Of a stretch of DNA of 24,289 nt, positions 7,537-22,590 are shown in pieces (the first letter of the stretch is position 1; each line of letters opens with the position of its first letter). The notes below the pieces were generated by a model that saw only the letters and a list, made by a program, of their open reading frames with translations, searched no databases and was not told where the DNA came from. The DNA is taken from assembly GCA_004151065.3 (NCBI GenBank), contig NWUY0300011243.1:1-24289 (forward strand), read 5' to 3'. The position numbers and the translations under genes were made by a program. Source of the stretch: Larix sibirica (lineage: Eukaryota; Streptophyta; Pinopsida; Pinales; Pinaceae).

Positions 7537-8040
7537 TCACAAACAAGGCTTATTAGAGGACCTCGATTTGAGATGATATCGTGAGGGCTTGGGGCCCAAG
7601 ATTGTGTCACAAATAATGTCAATAGATCCCTTCACGAGAGTTTTTTCTGAGAAAAAATCCTTCAATTCTAGGAGTACTTCCATAGAAGTACCAGAAACCC
7701 TCTTCTCTCCTACCTTACTGTCAGGTCGGTCATATAGGTCAGATGTCACTGTCTTGTTAAACTTACCTCCAGTACCACAATAAAAAACACTATATCTCCT
7801 AATAATCTTAGTAACATTAGGGGGGGACTCCATACCACAGTCCTTAGAGTCAATCTCACCAATCTTTAGCACTTGGTGAAGCTCTAAGTCTGGTAAAAAT
7901 TCACTCAAAGACGTAGGAGATGTATCATAAACAACAGACAGGTCGAGTAGGGAGAGATTCTGTATAGAAACTAGGTCCTCCTCCTCACATCCAGTAGTTG
8001 GATAAGCTGCAGGCCTTCTAAAGTGGTCCCACTCACACAA
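7537..8040 (-). pseudogene. LINE ORF1-like region, C-terminal part
   Basis: A 167-codon open stretch lies just upstream (on the LINE strand) of the endonuclease. It is rich in Ser, Asp and Glu in its first half and has a basic end (LGPKPSRYHLKSRSSNKPCL). Position and composition fit the poorly conserved C-terminal tail of a plant L1 ORF1, or the linker before ORF2. No RNA-binding zinc knuckle is visible, and the LINE's 5' end is probably truncated near 8102. The assignment rests on position, since the sequence is not one I recognise directly. Confidence 0.5.
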
Positions 8041-8126
8041 GCTTCAGGAGAGGAGGGGAATCCCACGGGTGATTAGATCTATCAAACCATCTCAAAGAAG
8101 ATACAATTTTTTTTTTACTAGTAGAT

Positions 8127-8134
8127 AACAAGGG
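8127..8134 (+). promoter_or_regulatory. Possible polypurine tract before 3' LTR
   Basis: AACAAGGG directly precedes the TG that opens the LTR-like segment at 8135. It is short, and is supported only by the LTR comparison. Confidence 0.3.
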
Positions 8135-9850
8135 TGACGAGCCAAATTTTACTGCAAAGTAGGGATTTGATTTGATTACTCTAGGATCACTTTTGACCAC
8201 AAATATGCTCCCCAGGAAAGATGGGCATTACTTAAAAGAAGAACCTTTTCTTACACACACATCCAATTTTTTAGGTGACTAAGTGGTATTGTTAAATAGA
8301 TTGTATACCAAAATGGGTTAAAAAATAAATTTGAATTTATTAGCGTGGATTCCCTTTTATATATGGTTATGGTTACATCAAAGTTCATTCTCCAGAAAAT
8401 TTTCATTTTAATTATACAATCAATATTTATAATAAAGTGGCAATCAATCCATTTAACTTTACATTGATAGATATCACAAAAGGAAAAAAACTAAAATAAA
8501 AATTTATAATACACAATGTGTATTAAGTTTTTTTTTTGAAAATGGTAAAATTTGTCATAACTTAGTTGTCAAACACGTTGTGAGGATAGTTATATTGACT
8601 CCTATCCTCAAATACCAGTGACTCATCACTCTTATTCAAAGAAAGCCACACTACCTGAAATAATTTATAATGGTCCTTAAAAAAATCCTTTATGAAAAAG
8701 AATTTTAAGTTTTATTCCATGACAAAAAAAAAATAGATAACACATAAATATTTATATAAAATATTTCTTAATCTATATATTTTTCTCACTAAAACAACAA
8801 TCAAACCAAATGGCTTAACATGACGATGACAGACCATAAAACCAAAATAACTAAAACAAATTACAATACAATTACAATACACACTATAGAAATATTTAAA
8901 TAAAATGTTTTGTCACTTTATATAATTTGAAGTGGCAACAAACCAACCTAACATTATAATGACTTAACTAAAAGAAAAACAAGAGATAGTGATAACTTGT
9001 TATACTTAGATATATATCTTTTTACTTGTATAATTTTTTGATATATCTATATTATATTTCTTAAATTTTTAAATGAACATGAAAGCCAACTCTTTCAAAC
9101 AAAATTTACCTACTACATATATGTACATCTGCCTGTCAGTTTTCACTATTGGTTGGACCTATAACAGTTGCAAGTTGCAGAGCATGTGAGAGCTGAGCTA
9201 AGATAATAATTGTGGGGGCATGTCAGACAAATTTGAAGAATTCCTACTAGCTGCAAAGCACTCTCAAAAAAGACAATTATGAGAGGTTAAGGTTTATGGA
9301 GTCCCTACTCAAGCATGTTAAATATAAAGCAAATCTAACCAAAAAGGGCCACTGCCTTATTAAAATTGATATTACAACGTTTAATAATAAAGTAGAAGCA
9401 GTGTATATTTCAACAAAAAAGAAGAAGGAAAGGTTATTACGAGAGACAAATAAAAAAAACAAAAGCATGGGCTATGCCACAGCTCGTCAAAGATTCTCAA
9501 GTAAGAAAGCAAATATAATGTTGTTAAAAATAAAAAGTGGGAAAAAATATATCTGGACAATATTTTAAAGTGTCAAACTAGCATTTTTAGGAGGAATTAA
9601 CAAATAGTGAGGGGACGTTATAAAATTTAATGATTAGGGGATGTTATAAAATTAATAAAAAAAAGTACTTTACTGAATGATTGGAATCCATTTTAGGTGA
9701 TTAAAAAAGATTAATTGTATGATCTACCTTTTAGCACCTGTCAATTTGTTTTTGTTAAAGAATACATTACTCAATCACTATCACATATGTTAACATCCAT
9801 ACACACAAGGTGTCACTATATAAATACACAAGGTACCAATTTTATTCATT
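8135..9850 (+). mobile_element. Probable 3' LTR, interrupted by unrelated sequence
   Basis: Bases 8135-8310 match 1352-1640 in order, and 9690-9850 match the later part, including the CATCCATTTT..GGTGA, CACATATGTTAACATC and TATATAAATAC blocks. The roughly 1.4 kb between about 8310 and 9690 has no counterpart in the 5' copy and begins near a direct repeat of the CATCCA..TTAGGTGA block. The simplest reading is a gypsy 3' LTR split by a later insertion or local expansion. Part of it (from 8435) is shared with the downstream A/B/C copies. Confidence 0.4.
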
Positions 9851-10440
9851 AATTTTATGAACTTTTAAATTCCCTTCTTTTTAGATAGGCAATATAATAC
9901 CCAAATCCAACCATTTATTACTCATTTACCTAGTTTGTCTAGAGCAATTGATGTCCTCACATGATAATATTTGAATTATAAAAAATAATTTGTCATTAAC
10001 TAACAAATATTTGAATTATAAAAATTAACTTGCCATTAAATAAATTAGGTGTACAATTTTCAAATGGTGAGGTGATGTGTTGTGTTGTTTCAATAATTAA
10101 AATTGGTTTTAGTTTGTTTTATTTATTTTTAAAAAAAATGTTTATAAGAATATTTTTTTAAAAGGAGATGGACACAAAGTACAAAATGTTAAATACAAGT
10201 TCAATATTTCTCATAAGAAAGTAACATATTCAAGAAATAATAACATTGTACATTCTTTTTTTTAATTAGTTATTTTTTTTTAATTTTCACAATGGTTAGT
10301 TAAAAGATGCACATATTATTAACATAAAAGAAAAAATACAATACATTAATATTTGATATAGAAAATAAAATATAACAAGAGATTCTAGGCCTTGGGCTTT
10401 TACTCCACTATGCCTTCTTCCATTTCAACCACTTGAGATG
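8435..10440. repeat. Copy A of a 2-kb non-coding repeat
   Basis: Bases 8435-8640 appear identical, with no indel, to 10442-10647 (copy B). Bases 8641-10440 appear identical, also with no indel, to 11168-12967 (copy C). The switch falls inside a 24-base stretch common to all three. The copy ends exactly at the N. It is AT-rich, and the only ORF is a 90-codon one at 9296-9568. Confidence 0.9.
9817..9827 (+). promoter_or_regulatory. TATA-box-like site in 3' LTR-like segment
   Basis: TATATAAATAC follows a GTTAACATCCATAC block, as in the 5' copy at 1781. An identical copy lies at 12344-12354 in repeat C. Confidence 0.35.
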
Positions 10441-10441
10441 N
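10441..10441. other. Single N: contig join
   Basis: This is the only ambiguous base in the window. It sits exactly between the end of copy A and the start of copy B. B begins with the same AAGTGGCAATCAATCC that begins copy A. This is the signature of two overlapping contigs joined with a nominal gap. Confidence 0.9.
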
Positions 10442-10947
10442 AAGTGGCAATCAATCCATTTAACTTTACATTGATAGATATCACAAAAGGAAAAAAACTA
10501 AAATAAAAATTTATAATACACAATGTGTATTAAGTTTTTTTTTTGAAAATGGTAAAATTTGTCATAACTTAGTTGTCAAACACGTTGTGAGGATAGTTAT
10601 ATTGACTCCTATCCTCAAATACCAGTGACTCATCACTCTTATTCAAAGAAAGCCACACTACCTGAAATAATATGTGATGGTCCTTAAAAAAACCCTTTAT
10701 GAAAAATAATTTTAAGTTTTATTCCATGACAAAATAAAACAATAGATAACATATAAATATTTCTTAATGTATATATTTTCTCTCTAAAATAACAATCAAA
10801 CCAAATGGCTTAACATGACAATGACTGACCAAAAAACCAAAACAACTAAAAACAAATTGGAATGCACACTCTAGAAATATTTAAATAAATTTTGTTTTTC
10901 ACTTTATATAATTTGAAGTGGCAACAAACCATCCTAACGTTATAATG
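10442..10947. repeat. Copy B: short (about 505 bp) repeat unit
   Basis: Its first 206 bases equal the start of copy A. After the 24-base common stretch it diverges from A and C (ATATGTGATGG against TTTATAATGG, and many later changes). It ends at GTTATAATGA, where A and C continue with CTTAACTAAAAG, and runs straight into copy C. B and the start of C are thus a tandem pair. Confidence 0.85.
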
Positions 10948-11822
10948 AAGTGGCAATCAATCCATTTAACTTTACATTGATAGATATCACAAAAGGAAAA
11001 AATAAAAATAAAAATTTATAATACACAATGTGTATTAAGATTTTTTTTTTTTGAAAATGGTAAAATTTGTCAAAACTCAATTGTCGAACAGGCTGTGAAC
11101 AGGCTGTGAGGATAGTTATATTAACTACTATCCTCAAATACCAGTTAACTCATCACTCTTATTCAATGAAAGCCACACTACCTGAAATAATTTATAATGG
11201 TCCTTAAAAAAATCCTTTATGAAAAAGAATTTTAAGTTTTATTCCATGACAAAAAAAAAATAGATAACACATAAATATTTATATAAAATATTTCTTAATC
11301 TATATATTTTTCTCACTAAAACAACAATCAAACCAAATGGCTTAACATGACGATGACAGACCATAAAACCAAAATAACTAAAACAAATTACAATACAATT
11401 ACAATACACACTATAGAAATATTTAAATAAAATGTTTTGTCACTTTATATAATTTGAAGTGGCAACAAACCAACCTAACATTATAATGACTTAACTAAAA
11501 GAAAAACAAGAGATAGTGATAACTTGTTATACTTAGATATATATCTTTTTACTTGTATAATTTTTTGATATATCTATATTATATTTCTTAAATTTTTAAA
11601 TGAACATGAAAGCCAACTCTTTCAAACAAAATTTACCTACTACATATATGTACATCTGCCTGTCAGTTTTCACTATTGGTTGGACCTATAACAGTTGCAA
11701 GTTGCAGAGCATGTGAGAGCTGAGCTAAGATAATAATTGTGGGGGCATGTCAGACAAATTTGAAGAATTCCTACTAGCTGCAAAGCACTCTCAAAAAAGA
11801 CAATTATGAGAGGTTAAGGTTT

Positions 11823-12095
11823 ATGGAGTCCCTACTCAAGCATGTTAAATATAAAGCAAATCTAACCAAAAAGGGCCACTGCCTTATTAAAATTGATATT
11901 ACAACGTTTAATAATAAAGTAGAAGCAGTGTATATTTCAACAAAAAAGAAGAAGGAAAGGTTATTACGAGAGACAAATAAAAAAAACAAAAGCATGGGCT
12001 ATGCCACAGCTCGTCAAAGATTCTCAAGTAAGAAAGCAAATATAATGTTGTTAAAAATAAAAAGTGGGAAAAAATATATCTGGACAATATTTTAA
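11823..12095 (+). CDS. 90-codon ORF, unrecognised, doubtful
   Basis: ATG to TAA with 90 codons, very rich in Lys (KKKKERLLRETNKKNKS) and with a basic end. It is present identically at 9296-9568 because that stretch belongs to the duplicated segment. I recognise no domain. It lies in A-rich non-coding sequence, where Lys and Asn codons keep frames open, so chance is the more likely explanation. Confidence 0.12.
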   Translation: MESLLKHVKYKANLTKKGHCLIKIDITTFNNKVEAVYISTKKKKERLLRETNKKNKSMGYATARQRFSSKKANIMLLKIKSGKKYIWTIF

Positions 12096-12343
12096 AGTGT
12101 CAAACTAGCATTTTTAGGAGGAATTAACAAATAGTGAGGGGACGTTATAAAATTTAATGATTAGGGGATGTTATAAAATTAATAAAAAAAAGTACTTTAC
12201 TGAATGATTGGAATCCATTTTAGGTGATTAAAAAAGATTAATTGTATGATCTACCTTTTAGCACCTGTCAATTTGTTTTTGTTAAAGAATACATTACTCA
12301 ATCACTATCACATATGTTAACATCCATACACACAAGGTGTCAC

Positions 12344-12354
12344 TATATAAATAC
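12344..12354 (+). promoter_or_regulatory. TATA-box-like site in copy C
   Basis: Identical to the site at 9817-9827, in the same context. Confidence 0.3.
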
Positions 12355-12998
12355 ACAAGGTACCAATTTTATTCATTAATTTTATGAACTTTTAAATTCC
12401 CTTCTTTTTAGATAGGCAATATAATACCCAAATCCAACCATTTATTACTCATTTACCTAGTTTGTCTAGAGCAATTGATGTCCTCACATGATAATATTTG
12501 AATTATAAAAAATAATTTGTCATTAACTAACAAATATTTGAATTATAAAAATTAACTTGCCATTAAATAAATTAGGTGTACAATTTTCAAATGGTGAGGT
12601 GATGTGTTGTGTTGTTTCAATAATTAAAATTGGTTTTAGTTTGTTTTATTTATTTTTAAAAAAAATGTTTATAAGAATATTTTTTTAAAAGGAGATGGAC
12701 ACAAAGTACAAAATGTTAAATACAAGTTCAATATTTCTCATAAGAAAGTAACATATTCAAGAAATAATAACATTGTACATTCTTTTTTTTAATTAGTTAT
12801 TTTTTTTTAATTTTCACAATGGTTAGTTAAAAGATGCACATATTATTAACATAAAAGAAAAAATACAATACATTAATATTTGATATAGAAAATAAAATAT
12901 AACAAGAGATTCTAGGCCTTGGGCTTTTACTCCACTATGCCTTCTTCCATTTCAACCACTTGAGATGATCCAATTGATGCTTCATATGAGACTAATTT

Positions 12999-13881
12999 CT
13001 AATGGCTACAAACTATTTCACATCATTGGACATAATTGGACCAATCAACCCACCATCATTTCTTCAACACAAGTACATCCTAATGGCTACAAACTATTTC
13101 ACAGGATGGGTTGAAGTAGTTCCACTTCGCATTTCCAACACTAATAAGGTGATATCATTCCTTGAATCCTATATCATTACTCATTTTGGTGTCCCTGAAT
13201 CCACTGGTTTTTAATAATGCATCTTACTTTTCCTCTCTTGATTTACCTCAGTTTACATTAGATAAAGGGATTAAAATCAAATATTTGGCAAATTATTACC
13301 CACGAGGTAATGGGTTATCTGTATCCGCGAATAAGAATATGATTAAAATTTTGAAGAGGACAGTAGTAGAGCACCACAAAAACCGACGTACGAATTTGTT
13401 TAACATGTTGTGGGATGATAGGGTTACTCTGAAAGCATCCTTATGCAATTCTCCTTTCTTTCTCGTTTACGAGAAAGAAGCCATACTCCCACACAATATT
13501 TTTTTGCAATCTTTACAGGTATCTCAAGCAACTCAAGAAACTGAATTTTCTGCCATGGAAGGAAAAATTAATCACTTAATTAAATTAGAAGAAGAAAGGG
13601 TTAAAGCCACAAACAGACTTGATCATCATCAATAGATTGTTAAACATTGACTTGACAACGGATATTCTTCCGATAGGAATTTCGAAGTAGGTGATTTGGT
13701 TCTTAAATGGGACAAGGCACACAAGGAAAAAGGAGAGCAAACCAAATTCCAAACTTTGTGGCTTGAGCCATTTGCTATCAGCGAGAAAATCAATCCCAAC
13801 ACTTTTCTGTTACAATAACTAGAGGGTCAAGATGAGACTTATCCAGTGAACTTCCAGACTCTGAAAAATGATTTTACTTGA
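12999..13881 (+). pseudogene. Gypsy integrase fragment X
   Basis: This is the C-terminal half of a Ty3/gypsy integrase. It reads SLDIIGPINPP, TGWVEVVPL, FLESYIITHFGVP, then after a one-base insertion at about 13199 NASYFSSLDL, KYLANYYPRGNGLSVSANK, MLWDDRVTLKASL, LIKLEEERV, and the GPY/F-like end GDLVLKWDKAHKEKG and TLWLEPF. TAA at 13816-13818 precedes the likely original stop at 13879-13881. In the DDE set the second Asp is Asn (NNASYF) and the Glu is Val (GLSVSANK). A 24-base piece of the MATNYFT region (13080-13103) is repeated at 12999-13022, directly before DIIGPI, replacing the expected upstream sequence. Dead copy. Confidence 0.85.
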
Positions 13882-14787
13882 TTTTCGCACAGGAAGTCAT
13901 TTATGTATATAGTCTGTAGATAGTTTCTTTTAATTTTTGTTTGGTTTGTTTGTTGATTTGAGGTAATATTTACTAGTTTTTTTTGTGTTTTGTTTGCTTT
14001 CTTTTATTATGGTTTTTGAGTAAAACAGGTTTGAAATTTATCTTTATTCATATTAATATTGAATTATCAGTTTTATTATAATTAATCTCCAATTTCAGTT
14101 ATTTTTATGAGACATTGGGAGGAATTCTAGATCAAACAGTTATTTCAAAACCAAATTTTTTCTTGGTCTCTGCATAAGTTTCAGCTGAAAATTTTCCATT
14201 CGATACAAACCAGGATTTTCCTGAGTTGATATTAGACCTATTTTTTCTTTCAATTGTTGTTTTTCTGAATTTTTCTTTCAATAAAGTAATAGTCCAATAG
14301 CCCGTTTATCAGCTTGAACTTGGCAATATTATTTTTATTGAACATTCTCGGGGGTTATCTATTAGAGAACCATTAAATGGCATTAGCCAGATATGATGAC
14401 CGAGTTTTATATTTAAGCTGAACTTAAGGTGAAGTGGTTATGAGTTTGCAACTTGGGTTGAATTTAGTTCTCTTGTGGAGGTACATTTCCAAGTCTTGAA
14501 AATTATTTAAAGCACTGCAAGCTTCAGTTTTATTCCCAAGTAGCTCTCTGGTGAGGACATATTTTCAATCACTCATAATTTAGTTGATATATTTTAATTA
14601 TTTTCCATTTGAAACAGCGAGAATAATTGATGTTGTCTCTATCATAAACCTCTTTATGCCATCATATGCTCTTAAGGATCCCTTGGAATTGCTTCCCCAT
14701 TCACTAAGTGATCTCTTATGAGATTAACAATCAACTTACACAACTTACTTAATAGAATTAAACCTTAGGGTTTAATTGCAGGTTAGG
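13882..14787. other. Non-coding, downstream of integrase X
   Basis: T-rich sequence with no ORF that I can support. It is matched by 18927-19824 in Y. It contains an AATAAA at 14280-14285 (Y: 19314-19319) and a purine run TTGGGAGGAA near 14115 that could be a polypurine tract. No LTR boundary can be fixed. It is probably the 3' untranslated and LTR region of the gypsy element. Confidence 0.4.
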
Positions 14788-15260
14788 GGTCTCATAATGA
14801 GCCAGAATATCATGATCGTAAGTATTTGCAGAATGACATCTCCGCATCTAGTCACCAAGCTAGGGAGATGGTTTGCAGCCGTAAGAATGTAGGACATGAG
14901 GTCTCATCACGAGCTGACCTATTCATCTCTGCAGGTGCTGGTGAATGACACTAGCATCAGTTGGTTACCAAGCCAAGGTATCCATTTGCAATTTATTCCT
15001 TAAGAAAAATCGAATATGAATTAGAAAGTAAAATCTAATGAGTTAGATTAAGGATAGGAGGTCTCATAACGAGCCGACATGATCATGATCATGAACTATT
15101 TTGGAATGAAACTATTATTAGATGGTTACCAAGCCAAGATAGCAGCTTCTAGCCTTAAAATTGAAATATAGGGGTCTCATTACAAGCCAGCTTGATCATT
15201 TTATGTAAGTTTTTGTGAATGACACTTTCGGCAACTAATTACCAAGCTAGGGCAGTGTCT
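14788..15260. repeat. Four-unit degenerate repeat (X copy)
   Basis: Four units start at 14788, 14900, 15060 and 15173 (spacing 112, 160, 113). Each opens with GGTCTCATnACGAGCC or a close variant. In the middle comes GAATGACA (decayed in unit 3), and near the end GGTTACCAAGCCA or a variant. The first motif can fold as GG(T)CTC paired with GAGCC. The same four units with nearly the same spacing occur in Y at 19825-20290. Function is unknown. Confidence 0.85.
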
Positions 15261-16492
15261 TTTAGTCTTCTCCTTAGAAAACAAGCACATGCTAAGCAAG
15301 AATGAATATAAATATTTATCTAAAATACTAAAGCTATGCATCTTTATCTATTGAATGGGATAAAAGTAGCCAAATGAGGTTAAAAGGTATCACAGTCGAG
15401 GCTATTGATGCCAGGTTAGTAGCAGTGGCTATGCCTATGGTATTGGAGGTAAAACCTTATGACAACCATTAATGATTACAAGATGTTCCTTTGATGAGTT
15501 GATAAAAAATGTATCCTTTATCTGATGTTTGATTATTGTTTAATTTCAGTGTTCTCACGGGTGCGTTGTAGCCTTGTAGGGCAATCTTTTCGTTGCTACA
15601 GCTGGTTGAAAATTCCTTAAAAGGTTTGTTATGTGGAACCCACAATGCAGGACTAAAAACTTGGTCTGATTAGAAACCTCCATTTTTATTCATCTATGCA
15701 CAACTTAACTGTTGAAACTTTAGTCATATATAACTAGTACTCCCAGCCAATCACCATTTGTTGGCCTCCCCAACAACAACCTTTTCATTTTGAAAAAATG
15801 AATGGGTCCCCATTGAAAGAATGTTCAAAAATACTTTATCAATGATTCAATATGTCAAGTATTCGATTATCTGTAGCTGTAGGTTACCTCTTGGGTTAAG
15901 TTCTTATTTCCTTCCTCATTTGACAGCTTGGATGATTATCTTATTTTTATCTTTTCTAACCACTGGTTGTCTATCATATGTTGAATGCATGTATTTTGGG
16001 GGTTCTCTTTAGATATTCTTGTCATAAATATCAATTTTTAGTAGCAGATTTGATAATCGTAACATTTTGCATATTATTTTAGTAAATAAACATTATGTAG
16101 CTGGGTTCAAATTGTTTATTTAACTTAAGTTTCAAGTTTATATGAACCTCGCCGTGCTTCATTTTATGTAGAACAGGTAATGTCAAATTTTTCCTATCTA
16201 TATTGGGATTTATTGCTACTATCTCTACGATTTGATGTGGTATCATGAAATTGGCTCAATCCTGTAGCCAGTTGATTTTAATGATCATTTATCTCGTTTT
16301 ACATTATATAGGATCTATTGGTTGAATTTCTTAGCACGATTTGAATTCAAATTCATATAATCTTAAGTGGTTGCGTGATTGAATAAGGCCTTTCAACTGG
16401 TTTGATTTAGTTTTATTAATATTTGCACAATGTTGAAATAAATTGTTGTATCCTTATGAGTAACTTGGCTATATTATTTTTCACACTAGCAA
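15261..16492. other. Non-coding tail of segment X with an intron-like piece
   Basis: Matched by 20291-21529 in Y. A short frame (15388-15448, ending VAMPMVLE) is followed by a 101-base GT...AG stretch (15449-15549) and another open stretch. The Y copy has the same arrangement at 20485-20585. The rest is AT-rich without recognisable features. The join to the integrase Z block is at 16492/16493. Confidence 0.35.
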
Positions 16493-17673
16493 AACCTACC
16501 CAAATTGTTAAAAGACAAGGTTTGTGCAAGCTCGTTGTTGATGATGTCAACATTCCTAATGTTGATTTTTCTACTGAGGAAATTGAATTTTTTGTGCTTT
16601 TGATTAGCCTGATTCTTGGTATACTAACTTCTTCTTTTTTTTCTCCCTTCTGATGCATGGCATGGCACCGCAACATTTGGATGCAAGAAAAAAGAGAGCA
16701 TTAAGGATAAAATCAGCCCCATATCATCTCATTAATAATGTCCTATTCAGGAAGAATTTTGATGGTGTTTTATTACGTTGTTTAGAGCAATAAGGTTCAC
16801 AAAGAGTTTTGAATGAATTACACATCGAGCCTGTTAGAGGTCATTTTGGGGGTGATACCACTGCATACAAAGTCATGATGGATGGTTATTACTGGATGAA
16901 TTTATTCAAAGACGCCCATGCCTTGGCCCATAAGTGCAAAATCTGTCAAAAGACCGTAGGCAGAGTGAAGAAAGTTGCATTTCCTTTGCATCATGACATT
17001 ATTGAAACTCCTTTCCAGCAGTGGGGTTTGGACATCATTGGACCAATCAACCCACCATCATCTCTTCAACACAAGTACATCCTAATGGCCACAGACTATT
17101 TCACATGATGGGTTGAAGTAGTTCCACTTCGCATTGTCAACACTAATCAGGTGATATCATTCCTTGAATCCTATATCATTACTCATTTTGGTGTCCCTAA
17201 ATCACTGGTTTTTAATAATGCATCTTACTTTTCCTCTCTTGATTTAACTCAGTTTACATTAGATAAAGGGATTAAAATCAAATATTTGGCAAATTATTAC
17301 CCACAAGGTAATGGGTTATCTAAATCCACGAATAAGAATATGATTAAAATATTTAAGAGGACAGTAGCAGAGCACCACAAAAACCGACATACAGCTTTGT
17401 TTAACATGTTGTGGGATGATAGGGTTACCCTGAAAGCATCCTTAGGCAATTCTCCTTTCTTTCTCATTTACGAGAAAGAAGCCATAATCCCACCCAATGT
17501 TTTTTTGCAACCTTTACAGCTATCTCAAGCAACTCAAGAAACTGAATTTTCTGCCATGGAAGGAAGAATTAATCACTTAATTAAATTAGAAGAAGAAAGG
17601 GTTAAAGCCTCAAACTGACTTGATCATCATCAACATATTGTTAAACATTGGTTTGAAAACAAATCTTCTTCTG
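16493..17673 (+). pseudogene. Gypsy RNase H-integrase remnant Z
   Basis: The most complete integrase here. After a linker (KPTQIVKRQGLCKLVV at 16493) and a frame change, it reads ALRIKSAPYHLINNVLFRKN, a TAA (16791-16793), then LNELHIEPVRGHFGG, GYYWMNLFKDAHALAHKCKI (HHCC zinc-binding domain), WGLDIIGPINPP and MATDYFT, TGA (17106-17108), WVEVVPL, THFGVPKSLVFNNASYF, NYYPQGNGLSKSTNK and LEEERVKASN, TGA (17616-17618). The frame is constant from about 16700 to 17673. Of the DDE triad the first Asp is kept, the second is Asn and the Glu is Lys. The end is cut at about 17673, where segment Y begins. Inactive. Confidence 0.88.
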
Positions 17674-18045
17674 ATTGGTTTTAGTTTGTTTTATTTATTT
17701 TTAAAAGAAATGTTTATAGTAATATTTTTTTAAAAGGCGATGGAGAGAAAGTACAAAACGTTAAATATAAATTCAATATTTCTCATAAGAAAGTAACATA
17801 TTCAAGAAATAATAACATTGTACATTCTTTTTTCTAATTAGTATTTTTTTTAATTTCCACAATGGCTAGTATAAAGATGCACATATTATACTAACATAAA
17901 AGAAAAAATACAATACATTAATATTTGATATAGAAAATAAAACATAACGAGAGATTCTAGGCCTTGGGCTTTTACTCCACTATGCCTTCTTCCATTTCAA
18001 CCACTTGAGATGATCCAATTGATGCTTCATATGAGACTAATTTCT

Positions 18046-18926
18046 AATGGCTACAAACTATTTCACATCATTGGACATAATTGGACCAATCAACCCACCA
18101 TCATTTCTTCAACACAAGTACATCCTAATGGCTACAAACTATTTCACATGATGGGTTGAAGTAGTTCCACTTCGCATTGCCAACACTAATAAGGTGATAT
18201 CATTCCTTGAATCCTTTATCATTACTCATTTTGGTGTCCCTGAATCACTGGTTTTTAATAATGCATCTTACTTTTCCTCTCTTGATTTACCTCAGTTTAC
18301 ATTAGATAAAGGGATTAAAATCAAATATTTGGAAAATTATTACCCATGAGGCAATAGGTTATCTGTATCTGCGAATAAGAATATGATTAAAATTTTGAAG
18401 AGGACAGTAGTAGAGCACCACAAAAACTGACATACGACTTTGTTTAACATGTTGTGGGATGATAGGGGTACCCTGAAAGCATCCTTATGCAATTCTCCTT
18501 TTTTTTCTCGTTTACGAGAAAGTAGCCATACTCCAACACAATGTTTTTTTGCAATCTTTACAGGCATCTCAAGCAACTCAAGAAACTGAATTTTCTGCCA
18601 TGGAAGGAAAAATTAATCACTTAATTAAATTAGAAGAAGAAAGGGTTAAAGCCACAAACAGACTTGATCATCATCAACAGATTGTTAAACATTGGCTTGA
18701 CAATAGATATTCTTCCAATAGGAATTTCAAAGTAGGTGATTTGGTTCTTAAATGGGACAAGGCACACAAGGAAAAAGGAGAGCACACCAAATTCCAAACT
18801 TTGTGGCTCGAGCCATTTGTTATCAGCGAGAAAATCGATCCCAACACTTTTCGGTTACAATAACTAGAGGGTCAAGATGAGACTTATCTAGTGAACGGTC
18901 AGACTCTGAAAAATTATTTTACTTGA
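18046..18926 (+). pseudogene. Gypsy integrase fragment Y
   Basis: Same architecture as X, including the displaced 24-base MATNYFT piece before DIIGPI. It reads through FT, TGA, WVEVVPL, FGVPESLVFNNASYF, KYLENYYP, TGA, GNRLSVSANK, a further TGA after HHKN, a frameshift in a T-run near 18505, then an open stretch (18549-18863) with TQETEFSAMEGK, LIKLEEERV, NRYSSNRNFKVGDLVLKWDK and TLWLEPFVISEK. TAA at 18861-18863 precedes the likely original stop at 18924-18926. The Asp-to-Asn and Glu-to-Val changes are shared with X. The TGA after the FT box is shared with Z but not with X. Confidence 0.85.
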
Positions 18927-19824
18927 TTTTCTCACAGGAAGTCATTTCTATATATAGTTTCTTTTAATTTTTGTTTGGTTTGTTTGCTGATTTGAGGTAA
19001 GATTTAATAGTTGTTTTTGTGTTTTGTTTGCTTTCTTTTATTATGGTTTTTGAGTAAAACGGGTCTGAAATTTATCTTTATTCATATTAATCTTGAATTA
19101 TCAGTTTTATTATAATTGATCTCCAATTTTAGTTATTTTTATGAGACCTTGGGAGGAAATCTAGATCAAACAGTGATTTCAAAACCAATTTTCTTCTTGG
19201 TCTCTGCATAAGTTTCAACTGAAAATTTTCCATTCGATACAAACTAGGATTTTCCTGAGTTGATATTAGATCTGCTTTTTCTTTCCATTGTTGTTTTTCT
19301 GAATTTTTCTTTCAATAAAGTAACAGTCCAGTAGCCCGTTTATCAACTTGAACTTGGAAATATTATTTTTACTGAACATTCTCAAGGGTTATCTGTTAGA
19401 GAACCATTAAATGGCATATTTAGCCATATATGAGGACTGGGTTTTATATTTAAGTTGAGCTTAAGGTGAAGTGGTTATGAGTTTGCAACTTGGGCTGAAT
19501 TTAGTTCTCTTGTGGAGGTACATTTCCAAGTCTTGAAAATTATTTAAAGCACTGCAAGCTTCAGTTTTATTCCCAAGCAACTCTCTGGTGAGGACATATT
19601 TTCAATCACTCAGAATTTAGTTGATATATTTAATTAGTTTCCATTTGAAATAGCGAGAATAATTGATGTTGTCTCTATCATAAACCTCTTTATGCCATCC
19701 TATGCTCTTAAGGATCCCTTGGAATTGCTTCCCCATTCACTAAGTGATTTCTTATGAGATTAACAATCAACTTACACAACTTACTTAATAGAATTAAACC
19801 TTAGGGGTTAATTGCAGGATAGGG
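18927..19824. other. Non-coding, downstream of integrase Y
   Basis: Counterpart of 13882-14787, with an AATAAA at 19314-19319. I see no gene. Confidence 0.4.
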
Positions 19825-20290
19825 GGTGTCATAATGAGCCAGACTATCATGATCGTAAGTATTTGCAGAATGACATCTCTGCATCTGGTCACCAATCTAG
19901 GGAGATGGCTTGCAACCATAAGAATGTAGGACATGAGGTCTCATCACGAGCTGACCTGCTCATCTCTGTAGGTGCTGGTGAATGACACTAGCATCAATTG
20001 GTTACGAAGCCAAGGTATCCATTTGCAATTTATTCCTTTAGAAAATTGAATATGAATTAGAAAGTAAAATCTAATGAGTTGGATTAAGGATAGGAGGTCT
20101 CATAACGAGCCGACATGATCATGATCATGAACTCTTTTGGAATGACACTATCATTAGATGGTTACCAAGCCAATATAGCATCTTTCAGCCTTAAAATTGA
20201 AAGATAGGGGTCTCATTACGAGCCAGTCTGATCATTTTCTGTATGTTTTTGTGAATGACACTTTCAGCAACTGGTTACCAAGATAGGGCA
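19825..20290. repeat. Four-unit degenerate repeat (Y copy)
   Basis: Units start at 19825, 19937, 20096 and 20209 (spacing 112, 159, 113), matching the X array one for one. The opening motif is kept (GGTGTCATAATGAGCC, GGTCTCATCACGAGCT, GGTCTCATAACGAGCC, GGTCTCATTACGAGCC). Confidence 0.85.
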
Positions 20291-21529
20291 GTGTCCTTTA
20301 GTCTTCTCCTTAGAAAACAAGCACATGCTAAGCAAGAATGAATATAAATATTTATCTAAAATACTAAAGCTATGCATCTTTATCTAGTGAATGGGATAAA
20401 AGTAGCCAAATGAGGTTAAAAGGTATCACTGTCGAGGCGATTGATGCCAGGCTAGCTACAGTGGCTATGCCTATGGTACTGGAGGTAAAACCTTATGACA
20501 ACCATTAATTATTACAAGATGTTCCTTTAATGAGCTGATAAAAAATGTATCCTCTATCTGATGTCTGATTATTGTTTAATTTTAGTGCTCTCACAGGTGA
20601 TTTGCATCCTTGCAAGGCAATCGTTTCGTTGCTACAGCTGGCTGGAAATTTCTTAAAAGGTTTGTTATGTGGAACCCACAATGCAGGACTAAAAACTTGG
20701 TATGATTAGAAACCTCCACTTTTATTCATCTATGCACAACTTAACGATTGAAACTTTAGTCATATATAACTGGTACGCCCAACCAGTTGCCATTTGTTGG
20801 CCTCCCCAACAACAACCTTTTCATTTTGAAAAAATGAATGGGTCCCAAATGAAAAAATTGTTCAAAAATTCTTGATCAATGATTCAATATGTCAAGTATT
20901 CTATTATCTGTAGCTATAGGTTACCTCTTGGGTTAAGTTCTTATTTCCTTCCTCATTTGATAGCTTGGATGATTCTCTTATTTTTATCTTTTCTGACCAC
21001 TGATTGTCTATCATATGTTGAATGCGTGTATTTTGGGGGTTATCTTTAGATATTCTTACCATAAATATCATTTTTTAGTAGCAGATTTGATAATCGTAAC
21101 ATTTTGCATATTATTTTGGTAAATAAACATTTTGTAGTTGGGTTCAAATTGTTTATTTAAATTAAGTTTCAAGTTTATATGAACCTTGTCGTGCTTCGTT
21201 TTATGAAAAATGAGTAATGTCAATTTTTTCCTATCTATATTGGGATTTATTGCTACTATCTCTACGATTTGATGTGGTATCATAAAATTGGCTGAATCTT
21301 GTAGCCAATTGATTTTAAGGATCATTTATCTCCTTTTACATTATATAGGATCTATTGGTTGACTTTCTTAGCAGGATTTGAATTCAAATTCATATAATCT
21401 TAAGTGGTTGGGTGATTGAATAAGGTCTTTTAACTGGTTTGATTTAGTTTATTAACATTTGCACAATGTTGAAATAAATTGTTGTATCCTTATGAATAAC
21501 TTGGCTATATTATTTTTCACATTAGCAAT
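20291..21529. other. Non-coding tail of segment Y
   Basis: Counterpart of 15261-16492, including the 101-base GT...AG stretch at 20485-20585. No supported gene. Confidence 0.35.
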
Positions 21530-21864: not shown

Positions 21865-22590
21865 ATGCATTGTGGTTTGGTACCAAAACTTGCATTTATA
21901 ATTGCAATGACACTACATAAGCTATACTTTTCAAATAAATCTATTCAAGTTGACTTATCAAAAGATTTGAATTCTTTTGGTTGTATGCTTACCTATAATT
22001 CATCCAAAACAAATATCGGCACCTCAATGGACCAAGTTCATCAACAACATATGAACAAAATGCCAAGAAATAATGTTAATGAGTCTATACAGTCCGAGTG
22101 TGTCCTTGGTTCAAACAATGGCAGTCAGAGGATTGATTGTCGGTCATTACTTGAGAAGAGGTCTTCTCTCATAGATCACGATGACAGGAAAAATCAAGAG
22201 GCAGTTGATAAAAATGTTGATAATTCTGCCAATAAGCCTCAGGCTCGACTTCTCTCTCTTTTGATGAGATGTAGGAAGGTTGAGTTAAACAAGGATCCAA
22301 AAAAAATATCCACTGTGGTAGTTGATTTAGAAAATGAGGATGAGTCAATGCCTAAGGTTAGAAATCCAGAACAAATGTCTGATGTCAACAATTATTCTCA
22401 GTTTGATTTTTTTCACGATCTTCCTCCTTTTTTGAAATTCCAGCCTTGTTTTTTAGGCATTGGGATAACAATAAAAATAATGCAGGATGGAACCAATCAT
22501 TTTGTTGACTTTGTTCACCCAGGGCATGAGAAAAATAATCCCAGTCATGTATGTGGCTTTGTCTGTCAAAATTTGATTGATTATTTTTAA
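21865..22590 (+). CDS. 241-codon intact ORF, unknown protein
   Basis: ATG (21865) to TAA, uninterrupted, the longest ORF in the window. An in-frame TAA 15 bases upstream makes this ATG the natural start unless the ORF is an internal exon. Residues about 1-50 are moderately hydrophobic (KLAFIIAMTLHKLYF). Residues 50-170 are hydrophilic and low in complexity, rich in Asn, Ser, Asp and Lys. The last 70 are more globular (FDFFHDLPPFLKFQPCFLGI, GTNHFVDFVHPGHEK) with Cys residues near the end (HVCGFVCQNL). I recognise no domain. A stretch from GTATGT (22549) to TTTGCATAG (22601) looks like a 53-base intron and would swap the last 14 codons for 13 others and a TAG. It lies between retroelement debris and a copia LTR, so it may be a captured or abandoned exon. 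Confidence 0.4.
   Translation: MHCGLVPKLAFIIAMTLHKLYFSNKSIQVDLSKDLNSFGCMLTYNSSKTNIGTSMDQVHQQHMNKMPRNNVNESIQSECVLGSNNGSQRIDCRSLLEKRSSLIDHDDRKNQEAVDKNVDNSANKPQARLLSLLMRCRKVELNKDPKKISTVVVDLENEDESMPKVRNPEQMSDVNNYSQFDFFHDLPPFLKFQPCFLGIGITIKIMQDGTNHFVDFVHPGHEKNNPSHVCGFVCQNLIDYF

Follow-up and report, generated by a model that had tools for sequence, protein, structure and literature searches.

The stretch of DNA analysed here (the window) is 24,289 nucleotides (nt) long, corresponds to the entire contig C3773 and contains three related copies, A, B and C, the first of which reads as a mosaic of the other two and is separated from them by a single N. Are A, B and C truly in line on one chromosome, or has one locus been written twice? 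An earlier note had described A as an exact chimera of B and C. It offered two causes: a graph assembler that jumped at a short shared stretch, followed by a scaffolder that joined overlapping contigs, or an allele carrying a B/C crossover deletion that was set in line with the other allele. Our analysis of the sequence suggests that A and B+C are, in all likelihood, two assembled versions of one locus, with about 2 kb counted twice.

The exact relations of the copies carry this reading. The first 206 bases of copy A (8435-8640) are identical to 10442-10647 of copy B (206/206), and the following 1800 bases (8641-10440) are identical to 11168-12967 of copy C (1800/1800), both without an indel, as had been judged by eye. 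The maximal exact match between A and B is longer than this, with 230/230 nt (8435-8664 = 10442-10671), and overlaps the maximal exact match between A and C (8641-10440 = 11168-12967, 1800 nt) by 24 nt at 8641-8664; the switch therefore falls where the earlier note had placed it, within a 24-base stretch common to all three copies. The claims that A and B start with the same bases, and that A ends and B starts at a lone N, also hold: the exact match begins at 8435 and 10442, only 23 of 100 positions agree directly upstream of A and B, which is unrelated sequence, and 10441 is the only N in the window. B and C, in contrast, are clearly different, with 34 substitutions in 502 aligned bases and 44 gap columns (K2P 0.071). 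When the 2006 nt before the N are aligned end to end with the 2526 nt after it (8435-10440 versus 10442-12967), the global alignment contains 2006 identical columns, no mismatches and one 520-nt gap, which can be slid within the 24 nt common to A, B and C. Since a single gap and no mismatch separate them, the sequence that ends at the N and the sequence that begins after it would be one sequence in two versions. The features are listed in Table 1.

Table 1. Features on both sides of the lone N (positions in the window; contig 1 and contig 2 are the pieces probably joined at the N)
Feature	Position	Strand	Remark
Left flank	7900..8434	.	part of contig 1; copy-number query, one match in genome
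Copy A, contig 1 tail, 2006 nt	8435..10440	.	B-like to 8664, C-like from 8641
24-nt switch stretch common to A, B and C	8641..8664	.	maximal exact matches
Lone N, probable contig join	10441..10441	.	only N in window; lone Ns elsewhere in the assembly
Copy B, first unit of 506-nt tandem duplication, head of contig 2	10442..10947	.	
520 nt in contig 2, absent from contig 1	10648..11167	.	B end and C start; global alignment, single gap
Copy C, second tandem unit and right continuation	10948..12967	.	11168-12967 identical to A tail
199-nt exact repeat, second copy at 17950-18148	12905..13103	.	contig 1 ends 63 nt into it

Lone Ns elsewhere in the assembly suggest what the N at 10441 stands for. 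The sample comprised 116,075 readable bases from 13 other contigs, excluding all-N stretches and the window's own loci, and only N runs clear of the ends of the sampled stretches were counted; the longer N runs all touch such an end, where they need not be gaps. All of the counted runs (n = 7 joins) are one N long, and at three of the seven (four of eight with the window included) the ends on either side overlap. At C101:9824, the piece after the N, 3853 nt in all, repeats the final 3852 nt of the piece before it save for one T/G substitution and one added A, and the two pieces end on the identical base before an N. At C12915:7588, the 81 nt before the N match the 81 nt after it with three mismatches, and at C1817:48541 there is an exact end overlap of 19 nt. 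Two of the three other overlaps (C101 and C12915) carry small differences, and every unmerged overlap observed is very short or includes a difference. No overlap was found at C101:13678, C2277:20139, C3952:25475 and C505:18511 within at most 8 kb per side (for two of these, the right side is limited to 596 and 179 nt), so a lone N is in itself no proof of overlap. By analogy with these cases, we infer that the N at 10441 is a contig join. Some scaffolders write one N for a negative gap; such a mark is not stated in the available excerpts of PMC5368935, PMC8389630, PMC3507659, PMC3158087 and PMC8110574.

Contig 1 would then consist of the left flank and A and end at 10440, and contig 2 would run from 10442 through B, C and the right side. 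The overlap between them would hold the 520-nt length difference, which would leave the ends unmerged, and a scaffolder would then have set both contigs end to end with one N, inflating the locus by about 2 kb. This part of the cause given in the earlier note, the joining of overlapping contigs at a lone N with about 2 kb doubled, stands, as three of the seven other lone Ns behave likewise. Assemblies tend to break at repeats and at shared matches, and both ends look like graph break points. Contig 2 begins at the first base of a 55-nt match common to A, B and C, at the point where the left flank and the end of B diverge, and contig 1 breaks off 63 nt into an exact repeat of 199 nt (12905-13103 = 17950-18148). 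For the part of this repeat that precedes the end of contig 1, a genome search returned no other close copy, and one further 79% match touches it. The two break points disagree about the word length of the assembler (a 55-nt match against 63 nt into the 199-nt repeat), and an attempt to deduce it from them was dropped.

The genome search, over the available part of the plant assembly to which C3773 belongs (618,328,334 bases in 19,862 contigs), passes over very common words, and the copy counts that it gives are lower bounds. The left flank (7900-8434) was found once. The 1476-nt unique part of A was found at least as A and C, both on C3773, with an additional partial match of 339 nt at 94% (17674-18012). 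The 230-nt block is present at least as A and B (100%) and C (89%), together with 32 weaker partial matches that each cover at most 137 of the 230 nt at 71-87% identity. A third copy elsewhere as the origin of A was not found in this search, which, with very common words skipped, is not proof.

Parallels have been published. Kelley and Salzberg 2010 (PMC2864568) treat as false segmental duplications those cases in which contigs from two haplotypes end up next to each other, and define duplicated contained contigs (DCC), in which >93% of a contig is aligned at >95% identity to a nearby contig, and duplicated overlapping contigs (DOC), in which an alignment of >300 bp at >95% identity lies within 300 bp of both ends; their calls also use mate pairs. 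The window resembles a DOC in that the copies lie on separate adjacent contigs (the single N at 10441 being taken as a join from the other lone Ns), the facing ends are the same and align to both contig ends with one 520-nt gap and 2006 identical columns, the outer sequence is unshared and a difference in the overlap keeps the contigs apart. It differs from a DOC in that its two versions are separated by one gap of 520 nt, a tandem unit, with no substitutions, and in that no single local alignment reaches the numeric cut-off, which is reached only when the 520-nt gap is allowed: a 98.7% match begins 499 nt into contig 2, and the one anchored at the first base of that contig reaches 91% identity over 530 columns. 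The DCC alignment threshold is exceeded by C101:9825-13677, where 3851 of 3853 aligned columns, covering the whole piece, are identical to the neighbour.

The optical-map scaffolds treated by BiSCoT (PMC7649008, in the excerpts available) show the same layout of one contig, a fixed gap sign and a second contig with the shared region doubled. Unfused overlaps, usually allelic duplications, are written twice there around a fixed 13-N gap; the gap in the window, unlike that scaffolder's mark, is one N. In addition, the available text on Readjoiner (PMC3507659) notes that contigs begun at branching nodes overlap each other, and that on Meraculous (PMC3158087) notes that some gaps are negative, with flanking contigs that overlap too little or in repeats.

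If one locus has two assembled versions, the origin of the 520-nt difference has to be explained, and the structure of the tandem bears on this. B (10442-10947) and C (from 10948) are head-to-tail tandem copies with a unit of 506 nt. Their differences fall at 12/229 sites before and within the 24-nt stretch and at 22/273 sites beyond it. Exact B/C matches of 55, 35 and 30 nt lie upstream of the switch and matches of 27, 29 and 33 nt downstream; all six are longer than the 24-nt switch stretch. The motif TTATAAT occurs directly before the start of the tandem unit and at the unit end, as expected if an ordinary tandem duplication through short homology had left it there. The duplication of B and C at the underlying locus would be old enough for a site divergence of 7% between the units.

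One explanation, which we hold less surely and whose probability falls a little short of even, is that contig 1 derives from an allele in which an in-register exchange, within the 24 nt common to both units, has shortened the tandem by 520 nt. Direct tandem repeats tend to contract in register, by unequal exchange or slippage, and the A junction is the expected product of such an event between B and C, although it could also be a product of assembly. A real contraction allele would explain why the overlap was left unmerged. The earlier note had given this allele as its biological alternative, and it fits at least as well as a graph jump, since small differences are also present in two of the three other overlaps. 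The probability of finding no substitution in 2006 nt between alleles is 0.37 at a heterozygosity of 0.05% and 0.02 at 0.2%; two alleles with no substitution in the 2006 shared bases, as here, are therefore likely only where heterozygosity is low. The two differences in 3.85 kb at C101, a single case, suggest a low value, provided that they are allelic. A deletion allele, if genuine, would be an ordinary structural variant.

The other explanation also takes the two contigs as versions of a single locus and departs from the first only over the origin of the 520-nt difference: the plant would have left-B-C-right only, and contig 1 would have been mis-stitched from B to C at the 24 nt. This chief alternative is somewhat less probable than the contraction allele. 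In its favor, A combines B and C exactly, with its switch inside an exact shared stretch, and the two versions show no substitutions. The switch, however, bypassed the longer B/C matches of 55, 35 and 30 nt upstream and so does not lie where confusion would be easiest, and assemblers of large genomes usually use words or overlaps longer than 24 nt. A plain graph jump at the short shared stretch, the remaining part of the cause given in the earlier note, is therefore not favored by the positions of these matches.

The A junction might also have arisen before assembly, by contraction of the tandem in a library clone or as a chimeric amplicon that was assembled as contig 1. Direct tandem repeats are prone to such in-register contraction, and the sampled contigs, of 10.6-90.2 kb, have sizes possible for clone-based data; however, nothing indicates that clones were used, contig C1002 exceeds 139 kb, and contig 1 is free of N for the 8434 bases up to A. 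We consider this origin improbable.

That A, B and C are truly in line on one chromosome, as in the contig, is very improbable. The contig letters themselves show the order A-B-C, four of the seven other lone Ns lack an overlap and could thus be true joins, and the region does duplicate: a second, older tandem duplication, at an offset of about 5 kb, relates 12629-16492 to 17674-21528 at 94% identity. Against this, one reciprocal exchange between B and C would yield left-(B/C)-right or left-B-(C/B)-C-right, and never left-(B/C)-B-C. The order would require a fresh 2.5-kb duplication and a 520-nt deletion, both free of substitutions, with the edge of the duplication exactly at the N, and overlapping duplicates across lone Ns recur in the assembly. 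That a very recent 2.5-kb duplication of B+C was indeed followed by the loss of 520 nt from the first copy, through in-register exchange, can hardly be credited. If the order were true, the locus would be a currently unstable tandem, with blocks of perfect identity in a region where the older duplication, of about 5 kb, is already present.

We reject the reading of A as an undiverged ancestor of B and C on the basis of the site changes: B would then be unchanged across the 230 nt at its start and C across 1800 nt, yet B and C differ at 34/502 aligned sites. Chance similarity of A to B and C is ruled out by the exact matches of 230 and 1800 nt: because B and C differ clearly, the identity of A with B on one side and with C on the other is far beyond chance.

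The duplication in the window is thus very probably an artefact of assembly; the most that may underlie it is an ordinary deletion allele of 520 bases. For users of the assembly, this means that about 2 kb are very probably counted twice, and with them a 90-codon ATG frame, whose sequence at 9296-9568 recurs unchanged at 11823-12095. Because the ends on either side overlap at three of the seven other lone Ns, albeit in a small sample, duplications that adjoin lone Ns should be distrusted.

The region around the tandem is plant repeat DNA. The plant is probably a gymnosperm: among the best 120 of 645 relatives of a GRAS gene exon from this genome, the highest-scoring one with a species name is in Cryptomeria japonica, at 53%, behind four sequences without such a name at 82-97%. 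The frame at 21865-22587 had no relative in a protein search, and the window contains no Rfam hit at gathering scores and no hit in a tRNA scan. Ten translated pieces of the window were scanned against Pfam. On the minus strand, RVT_3 scores over the cut-off in one piece and zf-RVT falls below it in one, a combination known from plant LINEs. On the plus strand, Integrase_H2C2 scores over the cut-off with rve below it; the rest of the ten pieces gave nothing over a Pfam cut-off. A search of viral contigs returned no copy of a 20-base stretch of C and no relative of the integrase piece. The integrase piece is read as a putative Ty3/gypsy remnant, as its relatives carry rve and H2C2 domains. Among the best 120 of its 143 relatives, one bears an organism name; it is in Cryptomeria, at 40% identity.

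In the assembly from which the window was taken (G000), contig C101 carries a 3853-nt piece, flanked by two lone Ns, that is the tail of the preceding piece again (tail and repeat together G000:C101:5972-13677, stretches L010 and L029). The two differ by one substitution and one indel and end at the same last base, and the repeat is probably a false duplication. Flanking ends also overlap, unmerged, at lone Ns on two other contigs, by 81 nt with 3 mismatches at G000:C12915:7588 and by an exact 19 nt at G000:C1817:48541.

A dispersed repeat of ~137 nt (window 8528-8664) is common to copies A, B and C of the window, and the longer of its matches on other contigs have 71-78% identity. On C12915 it is present twice, in copies ~545 nt apart (stretch L007, 956-1096 and 1501-1640).

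Window 12629-16492 and 17674-21528 form a tandem duplication (94% identity, offset ~5.04 kb), and a piece with integrase homology is found in three copies of ~93% identity. Short tandem arrays lie near the left contig end.

Repeated features of the window
Feature	Unit (nt)	Window positions
Short tandem array	45	264-354
Short tandem array	116	550-904
Short tandem array	62	922-1108
Integrase-homology piece		13026-13674
Integrase-homology piece		17028-17675
Integrase-homology piece		18071-18715
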